Shown here: piece after piece, positions 8,317-22,945 of the stretch | Position numbering within the stretch: the first letter of the stretch is position 1 | How the letters are laid out: every line of letters begins with the position of its first letter | From: Candidatus Peribacteria bacterium | Lineage (GTDB): Bacteria > Patescibacteriota > Gracilibacteria > UBA1369 > LOWO2-01-FULL-3 | Reading direction: 5' to 3' | Assembly (NCBI GenBank): GCA_943357285.1 | Contig: CALRGJ010000001.1 | Span: forward strand, 62,001-126,000 | DNA length: 64,000 nt | Made by a program: the position numbers and the translations under genes | The notes under the pieces: generated by a model | Database searches by the model: none | What the model was told of the DNA's origin: nothing | The model's input: only the letters and a program-made list of their open reading frames with translations

Positions 8317-9144
8317 CTAGATGTTTTTGAAGATGTTTAGGGTCTCTTGGTGGATCTTGTTGTTGCTGCCAAAAATGTCTGCGCCAAAGAGGTCTATTTG
8401 ATTACCGTTGGTGTCGGTGACAGTTCCTCCGGCTTCTTCGATTATTAGAGCTCCAGCGGCGATATCCCAAGGTTTGAGACCAAATTCCCAATATCCTTCA
8501 AAACGACCAGCTGCTACGTAGCAAAGGTCCAATGAAGCGGCCCCGAGTCTGCGTATTGCCTGGCAATGTCCCATCATGGCATTGAAGTATGGAAGATTTA
8601 TTCCTTGGTTTTTATAGGGGAACCCTGTAGCGAAAAGTCCGTTTTTTACTTCGTTGATTTTTGTGACTTGGATTTTTTTATCGTTCATATAGGCTCCCTC
8701 GCCTTTTGTAGCGGAAAAAAGTTCATTCATTCCTGGTGCGTATACTACGCCGACAATTAATTCACCGGTAAGATATTGAAAGTTCTTAGATTTTTCTTTT
8801 TTTGATAATTTGAAGAGACCGATAGAGACGGCATATTCCTTTAATTGATGAGCATAATTAGTGGTGCCGTCGATTGGATCTACAAGCCAAATATATTCAG
8901 AATCGGCATAGTCGCTAAAGTCTGATTTGCGAATAAAACTGGATTCTTCGCCGATAATTGCGTGGTCGGGATAGGCTTTGTTTATTTCTTTTATAATCAT
9001 TTCTTCCGAAGCACGGTCAGCATTGGTGACTAAATCATTTTTACCTTTCTCTTCAATAATTAGGCCTTTTTTTTGTTCGGCTAAAACATATTTCCCAGCT
9101 TTTTTTGCTGTTTTGATGGCAAATTTGAGGAGGTCTTTGTACAT
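8317..9144 (-). CDS. suhB: Inositol monophosphatase family phosphatase
   Basis: 275 aa with the full metal-binding set of the family: IIGEES, WLVDPIDGTTNYAH (residues about 85-99) and LKPWDIAAGALIIEEAGG near the C-terminus. Members hydrolyse inositol-1-phosphate or related sugar phosphates and some act on 3'-phosphoadenosine nucleotides; the exact substrate cannot be read from sequence, so the symbol is a family label. The ATG is only 6 bases after a -10 box. Confidence 0.88.
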   Translation of the reverse strand: MYKDLLKFAIKTAKKAGKYVLAEQKKGLIIEEKGKNDLVTNADRASEEMIIKEINKAYPDHAIIGEESSFIRKSDFSDYADSEYIWLVDPIDGTTNYAHQLKEYAVSIGLFKLSKKEKSKNFQYLTGELIVGVVYAPGMNELFSATKGEGAYMNDKKIQVTKINEVKNGLFATGFPYKNQGINLPYFNAMMGHCQAIRRLGAASLDLCYVAAGRFEGYWEFGLKPWDIAAGALIIEEAGGTVTDTNGNQIDLFGADIFGSNNKIHQETLNIFKNI

Positions 9145-14418: not shown

Positions 14419-16224
14419 TTAGTTGAGGTAATTGGCTATTCTAATTACATCTGCAAATACGCCAGCTGCGGTGACTTCTGCTCCTGCGCCCGGTCCTTTG
14501 ATGACTAGTGGTCTTTCTAGGTATCGTGTGCTTGTAAATGAGACAATATTATCGCTTCCGGAAAGGGCGCTGAATGGGTGAGCTGAATCTACGGTCTCGA
14601 GTTTTACGCTGGCTTTTCCGTTTTCAATTTTTGCAATGTAGCAGAGTCTTTTCCCTTCTGTTTTTGCCTTGGCAAGTTTTTCTGAATAGTCGGAATTGTG
14701 GGTGGAAAGTTTTGAGAAAAATTCTTCTATGCTCGAAGTTTGTCTACAATCTTCCGGTACTAAATTTTCTACTGATATATCTTTCATTTCCAGTGGTAAT
14801 CCAATTTCTCTGGCGAGTATAAGTATTTTTCTGGCTGCATCAATTCCGTTTAAGTCATCTCTTGGGTCTGGTTCTGTATAGCCTTTTTGCTTGGTTTCTA
14901 GTACGACTTCGCTGAAAGCTTTTTCTCCTGTGAAGGAATTGAAAATGTAGCTAAGTGTACCTGAAAGTACCGCTTCTATTCTTATAATTTTGTCTCCACT
15001 GTAAAGAAGGTCATGTAGTGTATTGATTATAGGTAAACCAGCTCCAACATTTGTTTCGTATAGAAATTTGATGTTTGATTTTTTTGCGGTCTCTTTGAGT
15101 TTTAAGTAAGTTTTATAATCACCTGAATTGGCTTTTTTATTTGGGGTTACAATTGAAATACTGTTTCCAAGAATTTTTTCATAATTTTCGGTAATTTTTT
15201 CATTGCCTGTGCTATCTATGAAAATGCTGTTTGGCAGATTGAGTTTTATCATTTTTTCGACAAATTCTTCTGTAGTTGATGGTTCGCTATTTTCTAATGT
15301 TTCTTTCCAATTTTTTAAATCTATTCCGTCTTTATCAAAGAATGATTTTTTACTATTTGCGATGCCAATTAATTTTATTTCTAGGGATTGGTTTTGTTGA
15401 AGAGAGGCACTTTGTGCTTGAATTTGATCGAGTAGGGTAGAGCCGATTTGTCCGCAACCAATCATGAAAATATTTAGGGTTTTTGTTCCCGATAGAAAAA
15501 ATGCATCATGAATGGCGTTCAGAGCTTTTTCTTCATCAGTTTTACTTATTACTGTAGAAATGTTGAGCTCTGATGATCCTTGAGCAATGGCGGAAATATT
15601 TATGCCATTTTTTCCGAGAGCAGAAAATAGTTTGGCGGAGATACCAGGTGTGTGGCGCATGTTTTCGCCTACGATGGCGATGATAGAAAGATTTTTTTCG
15701 ATAAAGACTGGATCTATCTGATTGTTTTTTATTTCTTCTGAAAATTCTGATTCAATGGCGTTTTTTGCTTGTTCGGCTGAGTTTGGCTCTACGGCGAAGC
15801 AGATTGAGTGTTCGGAAGATGCCTGACTGATGAGAATGATGTTTATTTTTTCATTGGAAAGTGCGCCAAAAAGTCTTTTTGAAACTCCTGGTACTCCTAC
15901 CATTCCACTACCTTGTAAACGTAGAAGCGCGATGTCTGAAATAGAGGAAATTCCCTGGATGATGAAATTATGATTAGTTTTTTTGCTAATAACTGTTCCA
16001 GGGAAATCAGGATTTAGTTTATTTTTAATAACTATTGGAATGTTTTTTCTTTGGGCTTCTTGTATTACTGTTGGGTGAATTATTTTTACTCCGAAATGGC
16101 ACATTTCCATCGCTTCAATGTAACTTATTTCCTTGATTGGAAAGGCCTTTTTTACTTTTCTAGGATTGGCTGTCATTAGTCCATCTGTATCTGTCCATAT
16201 CTCTATTTTTTGAGAATTTTCCAT
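14419..16224 (-). CDS. thrA: Homoserine dehydrogenase with ACT domains and only the end of an aspartokinase domain (ThrA type)
   Basis: 601 aa; bifunctional ThrA is about 820. The protein starts at MENSQKIEIWTDTDGLMTANP, which matches the middle of ThrA (near residue 230 of the E. coli protein), so the KFGGTS kinase core is absent. What follows is colinear: the end of the kinase lobe, two ACT regulatory segments (about 95-245, including AIVGENMRHTPGISAKLF and INISAIAQGSSELNIS), the NAD(P)-binding IGCGQIGSTLL, and the dehydrogenase catalytic region (VTPNKKAN, ETNVGAGLPIINTL, GYTEPDPRDDLNGIDAARK). The frame is intact and preceded by a threonine attenuator, so the gene is probably expressed. A separate aspartokinase would have to be encoded elsewhere. 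It could also be a recent deletion derivative. Confidence 0.9.
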   Translation of the reverse strand: MENSQKIEIWTDTDGLMTANPRKVKKAFPIKEISYIEAMEMCHFGVKIIHPTVIQEAQRKNIPIVIKNKLNPDFPGTVISKKTNHNFIIQGISSISDIALLRLQGSGMVGVPGVSKRLFGALSNEKINIILISQASSEHSICFAVEPNSAEQAKNAIESEFSEEIKNNQIDPVFIEKNLSIIAIVGENMRHTPGISAKLFSALGKNGINISAIAQGSSELNISTVISKTDEEKALNAIHDAFFLSGTKTLNIFMIGCGQIGSTLLDQIQAQSASLQQNQSLEIKLIGIANSKKSFFDKDGIDLKNWKETLENSEPSTTEEFVEKMIKLNLPNSIFIDSTGNEKITENYEKILGNSISIVTPNKKANSGDYKTYLKLKETAKKSNIKFLYETNVGAGLPIINTLHDLLYSGDKIIRIEAVLSGTLSYIFNSFTGEKAFSEVVLETKQKGYTEPDPRDDLNGIDAARKILILAREIGLPLEMKDISVENLVPEDCRQTSSIEEFFSKLSTHNSDYSEKLAKAKTEGKRLCYIAKIENGKASVKLETVDSAHPFSALSGSDNIVSFTSTRYLERPLVIKGPGAGAEVTAAGVFADVIRIANYLN

Positions 16225-16351: not shown

Positions 16352-16381
16352 TGTATAACAGAGAGAAGTTTAGAGTGTCAA
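16352..16381 (-). promoter_or_regulatory. Promoter of the thr leader
   Basis: Minus strand: perfect TTGACA (16381-16376), 17-base spacer, TTATAC (16358-16353), or 18 bases to TATACA (16357-16352). The -35 box overlaps the stop codon of the upstream mntR-like gene. The expected start point is 16346-16345, making the leader peptide mRNA nearly leaderless. Confidence 0.75.
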
Positions 16382-16758
16382 ATCTTTGGTTTGAATTTTT
16401 TGTCTTTGAGAAATTTTGCTGTTTGGCGGAGACGGTCTAGTGTTATTTGGCTTAGGCTGTGCTCGATTCCGTGGATATCTTTTTCTTGGATATTTTCTGG
16501 TATATCAAGAATTGTTAATAATTCAGCGAGAACTTCATGTCTCTCAGCTACTTTTTTGCCGATTTTTTTACCTTTCACTGTTAATTTGAGAGGTAAGTAT
16601 GGCTTATAGATTACGCATTCATCTTTTTCTAGACGTTGCATCATCTGGGTGACGGAAGGCTTGCTGAGTTTTAAAATCTTTGCGATATCTGATATGCGAA
16701 CTAAGCCTTGTTCTATGGTTAGTTTGTATATCGTTTCTAAATAATCTTCTTGTTCCAT
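16378..16758 (-). CDS. DtxR/MntR-family metal-dependent repressor
   Basis: 126 aa. N-terminal winged helix (QEDYLETIYKL, ISDIAKILKLSKPSVTQMMQRLEKD), then a dimerisation domain with metal ligands expected around ERHEVLAELL and HGIEHSLSQITLDRL. It lacks the C-terminal SH3-like domain of longer DtxR proteins, like MntR. It is divergent from mntH across 97 bases that contain a DtxR-type dyad, so it probably represses manganese uptake when Mn or Fe is plentiful. Ends in TGA. Confidence 0.88.
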   Translation of the reverse strand: MEQEDYLETIYKLTIEQGLVRISDIAKILKLSKPSVTQMMQRLEKDECVIYKPYLPLKLTVKGKKIGKKVAERHEVLAELLTILDIPENIQEKDIHGIEHSLSQITLDRLRQTAKFLKDKKFKPKI

Positions 16759-16786
16759 GTAGATATATTAACTTTAGATGTCGACA

Positions 16787-16815
16787 TTGACAAGGTGAAA
16801 GTAAGGGTGTATTAA
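16787..16815 (+). promoter_or_regulatory. Promoter of mntH
   Basis: TTGACA (16787-16792), 17-base spacer, TATTAA (16810-16815). The start point near 16822 falls inside the dyad at 16820-16835. Confidence 0.7.
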
Positions 16816-16819
16816 TAAA

Positions 16820-16835
16820 GTTAGTATAGCCTAAC
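16820..16835. promoter_or_regulatory. Probable MntR/DtxR operator
   Basis: A perfect dyad GTTAG-N6-CTAAC (GTTAGTATAGCCTAAC) resembling the core of the DtxR-type box TTAGGTTAGCCTAACC. It covers the predicted mntH start point, where a bound repressor would block transcription. Assignment to the neighbouring regulator is inference. Confidence 0.55.
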
Positions 16836-16855
16836 ATTTAGCCGTTACAGATACG

Positions 16856-18223
16856 ATGAAGAATTTTTTTAGATCTCAATCGGCTGATGAGCCAGTGTGG
16901 AGATTGCAAAATGGAAATCCGAGTTTATCAGAAGTAAATAGAACTATTCCTATTCCAAAAGGAGTGGGATTTTGGCGTAAAATGTTTGCCTTTGCCGGTC
17001 CTGGTTATTTGGTTGCGGTAGGGTATATGGATCCGGGAAATTGGGCTACAGATTTAGCCGGTGGATCGGCTTTTGGTTACACTTTGCTTAGTGTGATTCT
17101 GATCTCTAATCTTATGGCGATTTTGCTGCAGTCTTTATCTGCAAAATTGGGAATTGTGACAGGTAGAGATTTAGCACAGGCTTGTCGTGATCATTATTCT
17201 AAACCGGTGTCTTTCATTTTGTGGGTTTTGTGTGAGTTGGCAATTGCAGCTTGTGATTTGGCGGAGGTTATTGGTTCAGCCATAGCCTTGAATTTACTTT
17301 TTGGTATTCCTTTAGTTTGGGGTGTGTGTATTACATCTCTTGATGTATTATTGGTTTTATTTTTGCAGAATAAGGGTTTCAGATATATAGAGGCGCTTGT
17401 GGTTACTCTAGTGTTGACTGTGGGTGCGTGTTTCTTTGCTGAAATTATTTTCTCAAATCCGGCTATCGGGCCAGTGCTTGCAGGATTTGTTCCTTCTTTT
17501 GAGATTATCAAAAATCCAGAGATGCTTTTCATAGCAATTGGAATTTTGGGGGCTACGGTGATGCCACATAATCTTTATTTACACTCTTCTATAGTTCAGA
17601 CTCGTAAGTATGAATTGGATACTGAAGGTAAAAAGGAAGCGGTGAAATTCGCTACAATTGACTCTACTGTTGCTTTGATGTTTGCCCTATTTATTAATGC
17701 GGCAATTCTAATTGTTTCTGCTGCGACATTTTTTGCGAGTGGTCAGCATGAGGTAGCGGAAATTCAGCAGGCTTATCAATTGTTAACGCCTACTTTAGGT
17801 GTGGGAATTGCTAGTACACTTTTTGCGGTAGCTCTTTTGGCTTCGGGCCAGAATTCGACGCTTACGGGTACTCTTGCAGGTCAAATTGTTATGGAGGGTT
17901 TTTTGAATTTACGTTTACCTCCGTGGTTACGTCGTTTAATTACTAGACTTATTGCGATTGTACCAGCAGTGATTGTTACTATTCTTTATGGAGAGAGTGG
18001 AACTGCTAAATTGCTTATTTTGAGTCAGGTTATCTTGAGCTTGCAGTTGCCTTTTGCAATTGTGCCATTGATTATTTTCACGAATGATAAGAGAAAAATG
18101 GGTCAATTTGCTAATAAGACTTGGATTAAAGTTTTGGCATGGATTGTGGCAGCAATAATTATCACTTTGAATGTTAAACTGCTCGCTGATTTCTTTGGAA
18201 TTACCAGCTTAATATTTAATTAG
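16856..18223 (+). CDS. mntH: NRAMP-family divalent metal (manganese) transporter
   Basis: 455 aa, about eleven membrane helices. Metal-site motifs DPGNWATD in helix 1 and [10 protein letters not shown] in helix 6 are intact, as is the family signature [20 protein letters not shown]. Such proteins import Mn2+ or Fe2+ with protons. Divergent from a DtxR/MntR-type regulator, which supports manganese as substrate. It is followed 10 bases later by an argH remnant on the other strand. Confidence 0.94.
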
Positions 18224-18232
18224 AGGAGTGTT

Positions 18233-18447
18233 TTATAATTTAGAGAGACGATTTTTATAGTGCTGAATATCCAGATTCCCTGGGGCGCCTAGGCTTACTT
18301 TTGTTTTGAGGTTTTCTTTGCCTTTTGATAAGCGGTGAGAAAAGGTGTTTTCTTGTTTTTTGCGAGATCGATGGCGAGATCAGCGTGGCGACGGTGGCGG
18401 GAGTTTTATTGTTTTTGATGCTGGTGGTTTCGCGGATTTTTAGGGTT
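18233..18447 (-). pseudogene. argH: Remnant of the argH 3' end
   Basis: Reading the minus strand, the last 28 codons give KENLKTKVSLGAPGNLDI then QHYKNRLSKL-stop, matching the end of the intact ArgH at 21656 (KENLKTKISLGAPGNLDL, QHYRYRLDKI). A second piece, ADLAIDLAKNKKTPFLTAYQK, matches the segment just before it but in another frame; about 11 codons (MKLIKKEKIDV in the intact gene) are deleted and a frameshift follows. Weaker similarity continues to about 18447. It is clearly a decayed duplicate, placed on the other side of the 1047-aa gene from argH. Confidence 0.88.
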
Positions 18448-18474
18448 TAAGAAAGTCCGTTTTTGTGCTATAAT
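18446..18474 (+). promoter_or_regulatory. Promoter of the 1047-aa gene (extended -10)
   Basis: Perfect TATAAT (18469-18474) preceded by TGC, an extended -10; the -35 is weak (TTTAAG at 18446-18451). It lies at the outer edge of the argH remnant, 35 bases before the ATG at 18510. Confidence 0.65.
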
Positions 18475-18509
18475 TAAAAGATAGTTTGTTTGATAATCTT
18501 GATTGAAAA

Positions 18510-21500
18510 ATGTCTGATAATGAACCTAGAAAAGGAAATATTAAAAAGGGGGTGGAGTCGACCTTTGGCGCTTTGTATAGCGAAAAAGTTTATGGGAAGG
18601 GTGGATTTTTTGAAAAAACCGCAGACTTACATGATGCAGATCGTTTGAGAATGGAGAAAGAAATGGCGGAGCTCTTGGTTAAGATTGATGCTGAAATAGA
18701 TCAAAGTAAAAAAGAAGAACTTACAGGTCAGATTGATTCCATGTTGGCTACGGTTGAAGCGAACTCCGAATATGAAAAGTACAAGAGGTTAAACAATATG
18801 AATTATGGTGCTCCCAGGTTCATGAATGATTTTAAGGATTTTGCTGATGAGGAGTGGGCTTTTCGTTTTACACAATACCTTGCGGAAAACTTTGATAGAG
18901 GCTGGGTGGCTAGCGCTATCCTTAACCGTGTTTTGCCTTACCAATCTAAGTTTTTGGATAAGCCTTGGGCAAAGGAAATTTACTTATTATGTCTTGATGA
19001 GGAATGGAACGCATACCATGCTTTGAGTTTCTTACCGGTTTTTATTGATAAACCTTGGGCGCATGAAGTCTTGGAAAAGGTGGCAAAAATGACGGATAGG
19101 GGTTTTCTTGCGAATGCTCGTCTTTTGGAAAGTAAGGATTGGGGACGGAAGATTCTTGAGGTTAAGAAGAGAGAAGTATTGTCAAAGGCTGGTGCCGACA
19201 TCTCGTCATTCTACGTGCTTACTCAAGATTTTGATGGTTTTATAAATATGCCCTGGGCACAAAAATTTGTTCAAGATTATGTGCAAAAAGTTAGTGTGGC
19301 ACGAGAAAATAACATAAACGAGTTTGGTTCTTTTATTAAAAAGTGTATTCCGTATGCTTCTATCTTTCCTTGGGTTAGGGATTTTCTTTTTTGGGCCGCT
19401 GAGAATGTTCCAAAAAGTTTTCAATTTAATCTAGGGTTGATACCTAAAGATGCAAGCTATAGAGAGGATCTAATTAATGATCTTCTCCGGTTTTCTTTAG
19501 ATGAGCATCCGGATTATATTTTAAGCTGTGTTTATGAGGATGCTCTAAGTGAAAATTCTGAGCAATTTCAAAAGAAAGTCTTAAAACATAAAGAGATTAT
19601 TAAGGTTGCCGTTTTTAAGCTGCTTTTAAAGAAAAAAGACTTAGGTTTCATTATTTCATATTTGCAACTTTTTAAAGCTGAGCCTTGGGCGTCAAATGTG
19701 ATTTTGCAGGCATTGCGAGATTCTGAAGATACGCAAGTCGCCGATCATACTGTGCGCTCTTATGATTCATACAAGGATATACCTCAGGCATTGGATATTT
19801 TCAAAGAAGCCTGTTTTAAATGTCCCGAGGCAGTTTTTGATAGTTATGATTATGATCTGCCTATGAAAACGGCAAGTCCATTTTTGAAAGAACTTTTTGA
19901 AGTTCTACTTCAAAAAGATCATAAAAGGTATGTTTTGTTTGATGTGAAAAATATGGCGAAAATCTTGAGTCAACCCTTCGGTCCTGAATTTTTGACGCAT
20001 GCTTTGGAAGCTTATCCTGGCGAGATGAACTTGTCTAAGTTAGAAGTTGATTCACCTAACGCAGTAATTTCTTTTTTAAAAGCGGGAAAATCTTCTATTA
20101 TTAAAAGAATCTACGAGCTTTATGAATTCTATGCGAAAAACGAAATTATCCCCTCATATAGATGGGATGAGTTTTTTCTTGTGCCGGAGTTTGTTCAGGG
20201 GAATATGTCTCCTCAGGAATTCATTGATATAACAGGAGATCCTGGCAGATGTTTTGCAAAGCTTGTTGAGATTGGATCAGTCCGCCAGTCATCCATTCAT
20301 ACTCCGCGACTTCTTGAGGCTATGAGAGGGGCGAGTCTTAGGTTTGTTCGTAATATCAATGATTTACATAATGAATCAAACGAAGTGCGTTTTGCCGATG
20401 TCCAGAATTTCAATTCTCAATATCTTTATACTTTGATGGTCAATGGGGGGGAGGAAGTTTTTACTTCTACTTTTAACGGGCTTTACAACAGAATGAAAAA
20501 TGCTATATCTAACGAAAATATTTCTTTTCATGAGTTTTTGGATGCGCAATCTTTCACTGGGTTGATGGAATTCTTTAGACTTTGTTCCAGATATGGAAAA
20601 TTACCTGAAATGCTTCAGGGGTTTACTGATGAGCAGCAGCGGGATGTTTTTCAGAGACTTATTTCTAGTATAGAGGATTCGGATGATCCGATGCAGGATT
20701 CAGTTTCCTTGATAGAAATCGGTACACTTATTGATGATTCGAATTTGTTAAGATTCTTTCAGGATAAGATTGGTGAACGTTATGAGACACTAGTGAAATC
20801 TAATATGGAAAACAAGGATGATCTTCTTATCCTGTATCAGTTAATCGCGAGCTTTATTGGGAAAAAATCAAAAAATCCGTGGATTAAGGAAATGGTAAAA
20901 AAATATCCGATAAAAAAAACAAATACTATTCGTTCAAAAGATCTTTTCAACAAAAATCACGAAAATGTTCAGGAATATTTTTTCTATGATGATCGAGAGG
21001 CTGGTGAAAACCAACAATTATGGGATGGGCATAATTCCTTCAAAAGTTTTATCCAGTTTTATGGTGCAAAAGTGGAGTGGGATAGTGAGGGTAATATTAA
21101 AAAAATTTCTGATGGGAAGTATGGAGATTGGACTATCAAGGATTTTGACAGTTACGTTCTAATTTCCGGAGCTAAAGAAGGGAGGAAAATATCTATTTAT
21201 GCGAACAAGCCTGACAGTCCTGAGGGGAATGACGAAATCGAGAAAATTTTAAAAGATAAGAATGTAAAAACTCTTGTTGTTGTGCATAGAGGTCATAGTT
21301 ATCATGCGCCGGAAACAATTGCCAGAATTCCGGCTATTGCCAAGATTGTGAGTCTTGGTTCGTGCGGTGGCTATCAAAACATCGCGGATGTTCTGAAAAA
21401 TGCTCCAGAAGCTCATATTATTTCCACGAAAGGTACGGGAACAATGGCTATTAATGATCCTGTTTTTAGGGCGCTTAATAAGGCTATTTTGGACGGTAAG

Positions 21501-21653
21501 GATATATCATGGCCGGAATTTTGGTCGAGGATTACGCCTTTGGTTGAGGGCAATCCTAATTTTAAGGATTATGTGCCTCCACATCTAAATATGGGTGCTA
21601 TTTTTATAGCAATGTATAACAAGGCGATTGAAGAGGAGATGGCTAAAAAATAG
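18510..21653 (+). CDS. 1047-aa protein with PW-type helical repeats and a possible caspase-like C-terminal domain
   Basis: Not a recognised family. Residues about 105-400 hold degenerate repeats of about 30-40 residues centred on a PWA/PW motif (KPWAKEI near 152, KPWAHEV near 182, MPWAQKF near 248, FPWVRDF near 287, EPWASNV near 392), each followed by a helix, suggesting an alpha-solenoid. The middle (400-850) is helical and unrecognised. The C-terminal 180 residues look alpha/beta: strand LVVVHRGHSYHAPETI with H929, then AKIVSLGSCGGYQNI with C952. A His after one strand and a Cys after the next is the arrangement of clan CD (caspase, gingipain, CHAT) peptidases. No signal peptide or membrane helix. 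The stop lies 2 bases from convergent argH; the gene is bracketed by argH and an argH remnant, suggesting acquisition. Peptidase assignment is inference. Confidence 0.8.
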   Translation: MSDNEPRKGNIKKGVESTFGALYSEKVYGKGGFFEKTADLHDADRLRMEKEMAELLVKIDAEIDQSKKEELTGQIDSMLATVEANSEYEKYKRLNNMNYGAPRFMNDFKDFADEEWAFRFTQYLAENFDRGWVASAILNRVLPYQSKFLDKPWAKEIYLLCLDEEWNAYHALSFLPVFIDKPWAHEVLEKVAKMTDRGFLANARLLESKDWGRKILEVKKREVLSKAGADISSFYVLTQDFDGFINMPWAQKFVQDYVQKVSVARENNINEFGSFIKKCIPYASIFPWVRDFLFWAAENVPKSFQFNLGLIPKDASYREDLINDLLRFSLDEHPDYILSCVYEDALSENSEQFQKKVLKHKEIIKVAVFKLLLKKKDLGFIISYLQLFKAEPWASNVILQALRDSEDTQVADHTVRSYDSYKDIPQALDIFKEACFKCPEAVFDSYDYDLPMKTASPFLKELFEVLLQKDHKRYVLFDVKNMAKILSQPFGPEFLTHALEAYPGEMNLSKLEVDSPNAVISFLKAGKSSIIKRIYELYEFYAKNEIIPSYRWDEFFLVPEFVQGNMSPQEFIDITGDPGRCFAKLVEIGSVRQSSIHTPRLLEAMRGASLRFVRNINDLHNESNEVRFADVQNFNSQYLYTLMVNGGEEVFTSTFNGLYNRMKNAISNENISFHEFLDAQSFTGLMEFFRLCSRYGKLPEMLQGFTDEQQRDVFQRLISSIEDSDDPMQDSVSLIEIGTLIDDSNLLRFFQDKIGERYETLVKSNMENKDDLLILYQLIASFIGKKSKNPWIKEMVKKYPIKKTNTIRSKDLFNKNHENVQEYFFYDDREAGENQQLWDGHNSFKSFIQFYGAKVEWDSEGNIKKISDGKYGDWTIKDFDSYVLISGAKEGRKISIYANKPDSPEGNDEIEKILKDKNVKTLVVVHRGHSYHAPETIARIPAIAKIVSLGSCGGYQNIADVLKNAPEAHIISTKGTGTMAINDPVFRALNKAILDGKDISWPEFWSRITPLVEGNPNFKDYVPPHLNMGAIFIAMYNKAIEEEMAKK

Positions 21654-21655
21654 GT

Positions 21656-22945
21656 CTAGATTTTATCCAGGCGGTATCTGTAATGCTGGAGGTCCAGATT
21701 GCCGGGCGCGCCAAGACTGATCTTGGTTTTTAGGTTTTCTTTTACGTCGATTTTTTCTTTTTTGATGAGCTTCATAGCTTTCTGATAAGCCGTTCGGAAA
21801 GGCATCTTTTTATTCTTTGCAAGATTTATCGCCAAGTCGGCAGTGAAAATATTTTTATTTATTTTCTGCATAATAGATTCTTCTTTTGGAGTGATACCTT
21901 TGAGATAGAGGTCCACTACATCCAAACTATCCATCACAATATCTGTGCTTTCGAATAATGGTTTTTTGATGAGTTGAAGGTCGCGATTGTAGCCGGAAAT
22001 AAGACCTTTAACGAGATCTTTGATTTGTGATTGATTGTTTTGAACTACCGAATTAAATCCACGTAATAATTCCATGGCATCGAGATTTCTTTTTTGTGGC
22101 ATGATGCTGGAACCGGTGACGAGATTATTTTTCACTTCAAAGAAATTGAATTCTTGAGAAGTGAAAAGTAAAAGATCAGTCGCAAAACGGCTCAAGGTCA
22201 TCATTATCTGTGCCAAGCTTTCTAGGTAAATACTTTCAAATTTTCCACGGCTATTCTGGCAGTAGAGAGAATTTATTTGAACATGGCGGAATTTCATTTC
22301 TTTAGCGGTGAGTTCACGGTCCAGCATGAGCGATACTCCGAATCCGGCAGCGCTTCCCAGCGGATTTTTGTTGATATGCTGCATTGTGTAGTCTAGGAAG
22401 TCTATATCGTCCAATAGGCTCTCTAGAATGCTGCAGGCATAATGTCCAACACTAGAAAGCATGGCTTGCTGAGTGTGGCTGTAGCCTGGGAGTGGCATGC
22501 TTTGATATTTCTGGGCGAAGTCGAGAAACTCACGCGCGAGTTTTTTTGTCTTTGCACGTATCATTTTTAGATGATCTTTCATGTAGAGACGAAGTGCAGT
22601 GAGCACCTGATCATTACGGCTTCTACCAGTGTGAATTTTGAGTCCAAGTTTTTTAATTTTCTTGGTAAGATAATTTTCAATTACTGTATGGCAATCTTCA
22701 TCTTGAACTGTGATTTTCACACGGCCTTTCCTGAAATCTCTTTCGAGTCTATTTAGGCTGGAAAATATGCGGCGAATCTCTGCTGCTTTGAAAATTCCGA
22801 TCTGTTGTAGCCCTTTGGCATGAGCTTTTGTAGCTTGAATGTCGTAGGGCATTAATTTGGCATCGAGAATATAGTCCGTGCCGACGGTATATTTTTCAAC
22901 TAGGGGATGCAGAGAATTTCCTTTTTTTGCCCAGAGTTTAGCCAT
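21656..22945 (-). CDS. argH: Argininosuccinate lyase
   Basis: Last step of arginine synthesis: argininosuccinate to arginine and fumarate. 429 aa from the ATG at 22945 (MAKLWAKKG); an upstream in-frame start at 22966 would add seven residues. Fumarase/lyase-superfamily landmarks: HTGRSRNDQVLTALRLYM, PGYSHTQQAMLSSVGHYA and the signature loop GSSIMPQKRNLDAMELLRG with the catalytic Ser. Downstream of argG across 45 bases with two hairpins, so controlled by the same arginine leader. Confidence 0.96.
   Translation of the reverse strand: MAKLWAKKGNSLHPLVEKYTVGTDYILDAKLMPYDIQATKAHAKGLQQIGIFKAAEIRRIFSSLNRLERDFRKGRVKITVQDEDCHTVIENYLTKKIKKLGLKIHTGRSRNDQVLTALRLYMKDHLKMIRAKTKKLAREFLDFAQKYQSMPLPGYSHTQQAMLSSVGHYACSILESLLDDIDFLDYTMQHINKNPLGSAAGFGVSLMLDRELTAKEMKFRHVQINSLYCQNSRGKFESIYLESLAQIMMTLSRFATDLLLFTSQEFNFFEVKNNLVTGSSIMPQKRNLDAMELLRGFNSVVQNNQSQIKDLVKGLISGYNRDLQLIKKPLFESTDIVMDSLDVVDLYLKGITPKEESIMQKINKNIFTADLAINLAKNKKMPFRTAYQKAMKLIKKEKIDVKENLKTKISLGAPGNLDLQHYRYRLDKI

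Follow-up and report, generated by a model that had tools for sequence, protein, structure and literature searches.

The C-terminal part of a 1047-residue protein encoded in the window (the whole 64,000-nucleotide stretch of Candidatus Peribacteria DNA that was analysed) belongs to a hitherto undescribed protein family that is scattered across several bacterial phyla, and that this family is real and conserved is practically beyond doubt. Its members are probably cysteine-dependent enzymes, and the reading that we favour, with a probability of roughly 45%, is that of a peptidase acting like those of clan CD. It is proposed, more tentatively, that this is a new enzyme family in which an alpha/beta catalytic fold absent from the PDB, bearing an invariant D/D/H-R-G-H-S/C/N site, is set on helical repeats, and which has spread horizontally among Patescibacteria, Bacteroidota, Omnitrophota, Planctomycetota and Alphaproteobacteria.

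The gene is a complete open reading frame with an ATG start, 35 bp downstream of a promoter-like site, and occurs as a single copy in its own 1.21-Mb genome. By inspection, the protein lacks a signal peptide, and searches of Pfam, NCBIfam and PDB sequences gave no significant family match for its 1047 residues. The features of the gene and its flanks are the following:

18236..18384, - strand: frameshifted remnant of the 3' end of argH (residues 376-436) at the left flank of the insertion, from tblastn; a second, partial empty-site match
18321..21678, no strand: segment missing from the same-genus genome G002 (empty site), from blastn
18447..18474, + strand: promoter-like site TTAAGA-16-TATAAT with TG ahead of the -10, a consensus match only
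18510..21653, + strand: the gene, encoding a solenoid and a Cys/His domain
18849..20309, + strand: residues ~114-600, all-helical repeat region (solenoid), from the AlphaFold2 model, the PW excess and repeats in homologues
residues 152, 182, 248, 287 and 392: PWA/PW motifs in the repeat region
20316..20954, + strand: residues 603-815, conserved helical linker, always paired with the catalytic domain; pLDDT >90 throughout
20961..21650, + strand: residues 818-1047, alpha/beta domain, putatively catalytic
20991..20993, + strand: D828, invariant in the alignment, directly past the first strand
20997..21023, + strand: residues 830-838, a 9-residue insertion that splits the usual DxDG motif, in 3/92 members
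21024..21026, + strand: D839, invariant in the alignment, at the start of the first helix
21285..21299, + strand: H926-R-G-H929-S930, invariant pentapeptide at a strand end; H929 is the putative general base
21357..21371, + strand: G950-S-C952-G-G954, past the next strand; C952 is the putative nucleophile
21423..21440, + strand: S972-TKGT-G977, past the following strand; G977 is invariant
21453..21455, + strand: N982, invariant in the alignment including Azospirillum, at the start of the next helix

The unit shared by the family is a C-terminal module of about 445 residues (residues ~603-1047 here), while the part that precedes it varies among members. No family matching this module was found in Pfam, NCBIfam, PADLOC, PHROGs or the PDB. 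A protein search of relatives recovered the module in 7 other genomes among the 99 searched, an eighth giving a weak N-terminal match only. Scanning GTDB contigs with a single sequence as query returned nothing, and the alignment-based scan confirmed 144 places. The best 80 of these 144, which were kept, are mostly from Bacteroidota (Chitinophagales and relatives) and also include Patescibacteria lineages, Omnitrophota, Saganbacteria and one Phycisphaerales MAG; in addition, tblastn found homologues, annotated as hypothetical, on Azospirillum megaplasmids. In an even sample, the gene is present in 5/99 genomes of Bacteroidota and in 2/380 of Patescibacteria, the window's own included. Viral and phage collections hold no match to the gene family, and a phage or mobile-element protein was for this reason rejected. 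Bacteroidota often carry two paralogues in tandem, of ~1070 and ~710 aa (L041, L042, L043, L045, L047 and similar), each forming a clade of its own in the tree, where the window sequence sits on a long branch with two MAGs (L026 and L028) as the nearest rows by path. In the ~1070-aa paralogue, part of the helical linker is repeated in the N-terminal half. The module also occurs in giant Omnitrophota reading frames (L097 522-17246, at least 5575 aa, with an HD domain close to the cut C-terminus; L033 1-7200, at least 2400 aa), and a Peregrinibacteria MAG has two adjacent gene copies (L093 3456-9296).

The sequence-only reading had singled out VVVHRGHSYH (H929) and VSLGSCGGYQ (C952) in the C-terminal part and had made its case depend on the conservation of these two residues in homologues. 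Both motifs are present, the first also holding H926, and the conservation is borne out: none of the 102 aligned modules and none of four Azospirillum proteins departs from H926, H929 or C952, and the spacing between H929 and C952 is always 23 in the 102 modules. Invariant or nearly so in these modules are D828, D839, H926, R927, G928, H929, S930, G950, C952, G977, N982, W1005, Y1021 and P1024. The contig scan behind the best 80 of 144 places used VHRGHS as one of its two patterns, so that the conservation of the histidines there is partly selected; C952 is in neither pattern. Ten proteins chosen without the motif, by the search of relatives, show the same conserved residues, and the four Azospirillum homologues, with 23-29% identity and likewise free of motif selection, retain HRGHSYH and GSCGG and have lost K974.

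AlphaFold2 modelled residues 818-1047 from 92 sequences with a pLDDT of 94.6 and a pTM of 0.90. The model has a strand (818-825), a helix (839-849), a beta hairpin (882-899), a helix (906-916), a strand (923-927) followed by H929, a helix (930-937), a strand (946-949) followed by C952, a helix (954-964), a strand (969-973) and a helix (979-994), with more helices after. The order is therefore strand-helix-strand-helix-strand(His)-helix-strand(Cys)-helix-strand-helix, and the earlier proposal that H929 and C952 each follow a beta strand in the order of clan CD agrees with the model. The same cannot be said of the caspase-like fold that had been expected of this end of the protein: Foldseek against the PDB gave no match at E<=0.001 for the domain model, and no clan CD structure or caspase relative is among the 50 matches listed. 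Highest in score were Arf/Rab GTPases, peptidyl-tRNA hydrolase and carboxylases, none with a TM above 0.38, a likeness that is no more than a generic Rossmann-like one. A fold search of BFVD gave the same picture, and with the full-length model only unrelated solenoids were retrieved. Several known sites were also compared and rejected: a HAD phosphatase (DxDG motif), given that HAD motif IV is absent and there is no Pfam hit; an isochorismatase-like D-K-C triad, given that K974 comes after C952 and is replaced by Q or S in Azospirillum; an EF-hand reading of DxDGxxSF, given that position 12 has no Glu; and the beta-carbonic anhydrase family, given that the Cys is supplied by the following strand and CxDxR is lacking.

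In clan CD, a Gly adjoins the catalytic His, usually as His-Gly; the catalytic His is placed at the C-terminus of strand 3, and the catalytic Cys where strand 4 ends. The His-Gly pair is absent here, the invariant R-G928-H929-S930 having Gly before the His and Ser after it. Profiles of C14, CHAT, C25 and C11 were built from Bacteroidota genomes and compared with the family profile by hhalign. The family matched each of the four with a probability of 0-3.6%, against 89-93% (by mode) for C14 with CHAT and 76% for C14 with C11 as controls. P was 0.01-0.04 for C14, 0.03-0.05 for CHAT, 0.055 for C11 and 0.1-0.3 for C25. Nonetheless, the best alignment with C14, obtained blind, places H929 on the catalytic His of GHG and C952 on the catalytic Cys of DAC, and the two residues also pair in the printed CHAT alignment, whose column numbers are shifted by a constant 5. 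Against shuffled profiles, the scores for C14 and CHAT rank near the 95th percentile (such profiles equal them in ~5% of cases), certain decoy families do just as well, and motif-preserving shuffles aligned both residues in 18/150 cases for C14 and 4/150 for CHAT; the profile likeness to C14 and CHAT is therefore only suggestive. No Pfam peptidase model matches the protein, including CHAT PF12770, C14 PF00656, C11 PF03415 and C25 PF01364, and separase C50 (PF03568) is absent from the Pfam matches.

The core of clan CD is a six-stranded sheet (five strands parallel, one antiparallel) with five conserved helices (PMC4357240). The order of elements in the model fits this core, except that the extra strand takes the form of a hairpin ahead of strand 2 and that no strand 6 is predicted. 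Concern had been raised that a spacing of 23 is shorter than in most caspases. It is indeed short, but the concern is a mild one: the spacing is 26 in separase (H2003-C2029) and 42 in TPR-CHAT (H585-C627) (PMC9729208), and given the value of separase, a short spacing is not disqualifying. Of the proposed caspase/CHAT-type peptidase, the order of His and Cys after their strands has stood, whereas a caspase-like fold is not borne out, with no significant match from Foldseek, none to a Pfam peptidase model and profiles at the edge of chance. The family is kept out of clan CD because neither a similarity of fold nor the His-Gly feature was found; it is not provably a relative of caspases, and is better described as a new family of solenoid-linked cysteine hydrolases, possibly caspase-like. 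A set of invariant polar residues as large as this one (D, D, H, R, H, S, C, N) is unusual for a caspase and fits a more elaborate or metal-assisted active site.

Among known systems, TPR-CHAT (Csx29/Craspase) has the same helical-repeat N-terminal part and a C-terminal alpha/beta domain in which the His precedes the Cys, each past a strand, and the blind profile alignment pairs the catalytic strands; the family differs in having no Pfam match, a P of only ~0.03-0.05, the shorter spacing (23 versus 42) and no CRISPR or defence context, and in that most Bacteroidota members look exported. Separase (C50) shares the solenoid with a C-terminal Cys/His protease domain and has the nearest spacing (PMC9729208), but no sequence match was found, and 9hm7 comes no higher than rank 35 (E 0.034), surrounded by other solenoids. 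For metacaspases and caspases (C14), the pairing of H929 and C952 with the catalytic residues contrasts with a probability of 1-4%, the lack of GHG and of a Pfam hit, and a spacing that is about half. Gingipain (C25) and clostripain (C11) are clan CD peptidases that bacteria export, and both occur in Bacteroidota; nonetheless, C25 shows no profile relation and its catalytic residues are not aligned, and the profile P of C11 is only 0.055.

In a peptidase of this kind, C952, at a strand-turn-helix, would be the nucleophile and H929, one strand earlier, would activate it, as in the geometry of clan CD. The substrate would most likely be a protein, selected or held by the solenoid and cleaved by the C-terminal domain. 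The S1 regions of clan CD are alpha1/L1, L4 and L5 (PMC4357240). D828 and D839 are found where the first strand ends and the first helix starts, the place at which clan CD builds S1, and for this reason they are predicted to shape an acidic S1 pocket, with cleavage after Arg or Lys (P1). By a simple hydrophobicity test, a signal-peptide-like N-terminus is found in 57/76 Bacteroidota ORFs versus 4/21 others, and some Azospirillum proteins, as read from their sequences, look exported too. Given that most Bacteroidota members have such an N-terminus, which the window copy lacks, the Bacteroidota enzyme would mostly act outside the cytoplasm.

The N-terminal half had been described as an alpha-solenoid on account of spaced PWA/PW motifs, and this holds up well. 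PW occurs 6 times in the window protein versus 0.67 expected from composition, and PWA 4 times versus 0.04, with one of the six PW motifs (P790) outside the N-terminal half. In AlphaFold2, the N-terminal part is all helix, at a lower confidence (pLDDT 47-93 for residues ~114-600). In the homologues L019 and L020, (D/S)QPYAKE(I/V)LEKA recurs in 5-6 near-identical copies, 28-32 aa apart: the Peribacteria homologue L019 has DQPYAKEILEKA six times at 32-residue steps, and L020 has SQPYAKEVLEKA five times at 28-32-residue steps. At the DNA level, L019 has a 96-bp tandem array of 6.1 copies (8438-9022), and L020 has 180/84-bp tandem repeats (2454-2834) inside the homologous gene. The tandem repeats in these two genes suggest that the solenoid grows through recent duplication of units, and the PW motif is the mark of a true repeat. 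The self-comparison period of the window protein is not significant (best lag z 2.7 versus a 95% null of 3.3), because its repeat units are too diverged.

In the same-genus genome G002, whose ArgG is 99% identical, NRAMP lies directly beside argH; the window segment is missing and its flanks meet (L238 9127-9191). This empty site, together with the argH remnant left of the gene, indicates that the gene is most likely a horizontally acquired insertion beside argH. Two further genomes of the genus lack the gene and have other genes at that spot. Within the genus, the stretch from an MntR-like regulator (by inspection) to argH varies (window 16378-21656; L239 7900-10950; L240 7000-9000), the variants being NRAMP alone, NRAMP with the gene, two other genes, and a different NRAMP. 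Nearby, an aspartokinase/homoserine dehydrogenase ORF (window 14419-16224, - strand) matches profile positions 220-815 only; it has 601 aa in the window and 609 aa in G002 (L238 11196-13022), versus an 812-aa frame in G003 (L239 10936-13371), and its N-terminal kinase part seems to be lost or split in the window and in G002.

Several features would also suit a cysteine hydrolase or transferase with an alpha/beta fold unrelated to caspases, an explanation that we consider rather unlikely. C952 would then lie in a GxCxG nucleophile elbow, the substrate would be a small ester, an amide or part of the cell envelope, the solenoid would bind a partner or polymer, and the likeness to clan CD would be convergent. 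GSCGG, with a strand before C952 and a helix after it, fits the GxNuxG elbow pattern; clan CD is matched neither by fold nor by profile, and the polar residues and the export of most Bacteroidota members point the same way. However, no known hydrolase fold matches either, and in alpha/beta hydrolases the His comes after the nucleophile, while here it is 23 residues before. A metal-dependent enzyme is an improbable alternative, in which H926, H929, C952 and D828 would coordinate zinc or some other metal, with the "catalytic Cys" as a ligand. An HxxH with an invariant Cys and Asp at strand ends could form a mixed metal site, and a lone catalytic Cys is less common in the oxidising compartment to which export would lead; nonetheless, neither Pfam nor the PDB gives a significant match to a metal-site family, and a single Cys past a strand and ahead of a helix is typical of a nucleophile. 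Still more improbable is a non-catalytic scaffold or sensor, in which the invariant residues bind a ligand and activity was lost or never present. The large helical-repeat part, and the fact that no conserved genetic partner was found in the neighbourhoods, would be in line with it, but His, Cys, Asp and Asn are strictly kept over several phyla while the rest is at 23-30% identity, which is the pattern of an active site.

The conserved neighbours in Bacteroidota resemble, by inspection, glyA, PPK2, a hydrolase and a response regulator, and look like housekeeping genes. With PADLOC there was no credible match (best E 0.0024, in 1/92 members). The role in cell death or defence suggested by the sequence-only reading is thus left without support, and an anti-phage or cell-death protease is very improbable: its layout resembles TPR-CHAT (PMC9729208) and the gene is patchy and horizontally moved in Patescibacteria, but the PADLOC result, the absence from viral and phage collections, the glyA-, PPK2- and hydrolase-like neighbours and the signal-peptide-like N-termini of most Bacteroidota members all speak against it. 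On three Azospirillum megaplasmids (L211, L213, L214), the gene has a DUF1194 gene on one side and a LysE-family transporter on the other, in conserved order and close to eutBC. A linkage to NRAMP was also considered, given that this Mn-transporter gene adjoins the window gene and lies within 6 kb in five Chitinophagales loci; it was rejected as a coincidence because in 11 other genomes with both genes these are on different contigs or >650 kb apart.

With a Cys/His site that is strictly kept over several phyla but does not occur in Pfam, NCBIfam, PADLOC, PHROGs or the PDB, this family is a good target in the search for a new protease or hydrolase of bacteria. Should it prove caspase-like, the separase/CHAT layout would gain a relative that bears a solenoid, is mostly exported and has the shortest His-Cys spacing of those compared. 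The homologues in Azospirillum and Chitinophagaceae, the latter including a complete genome (CP075895.1), allow this to be tested outside uncultured lineages.
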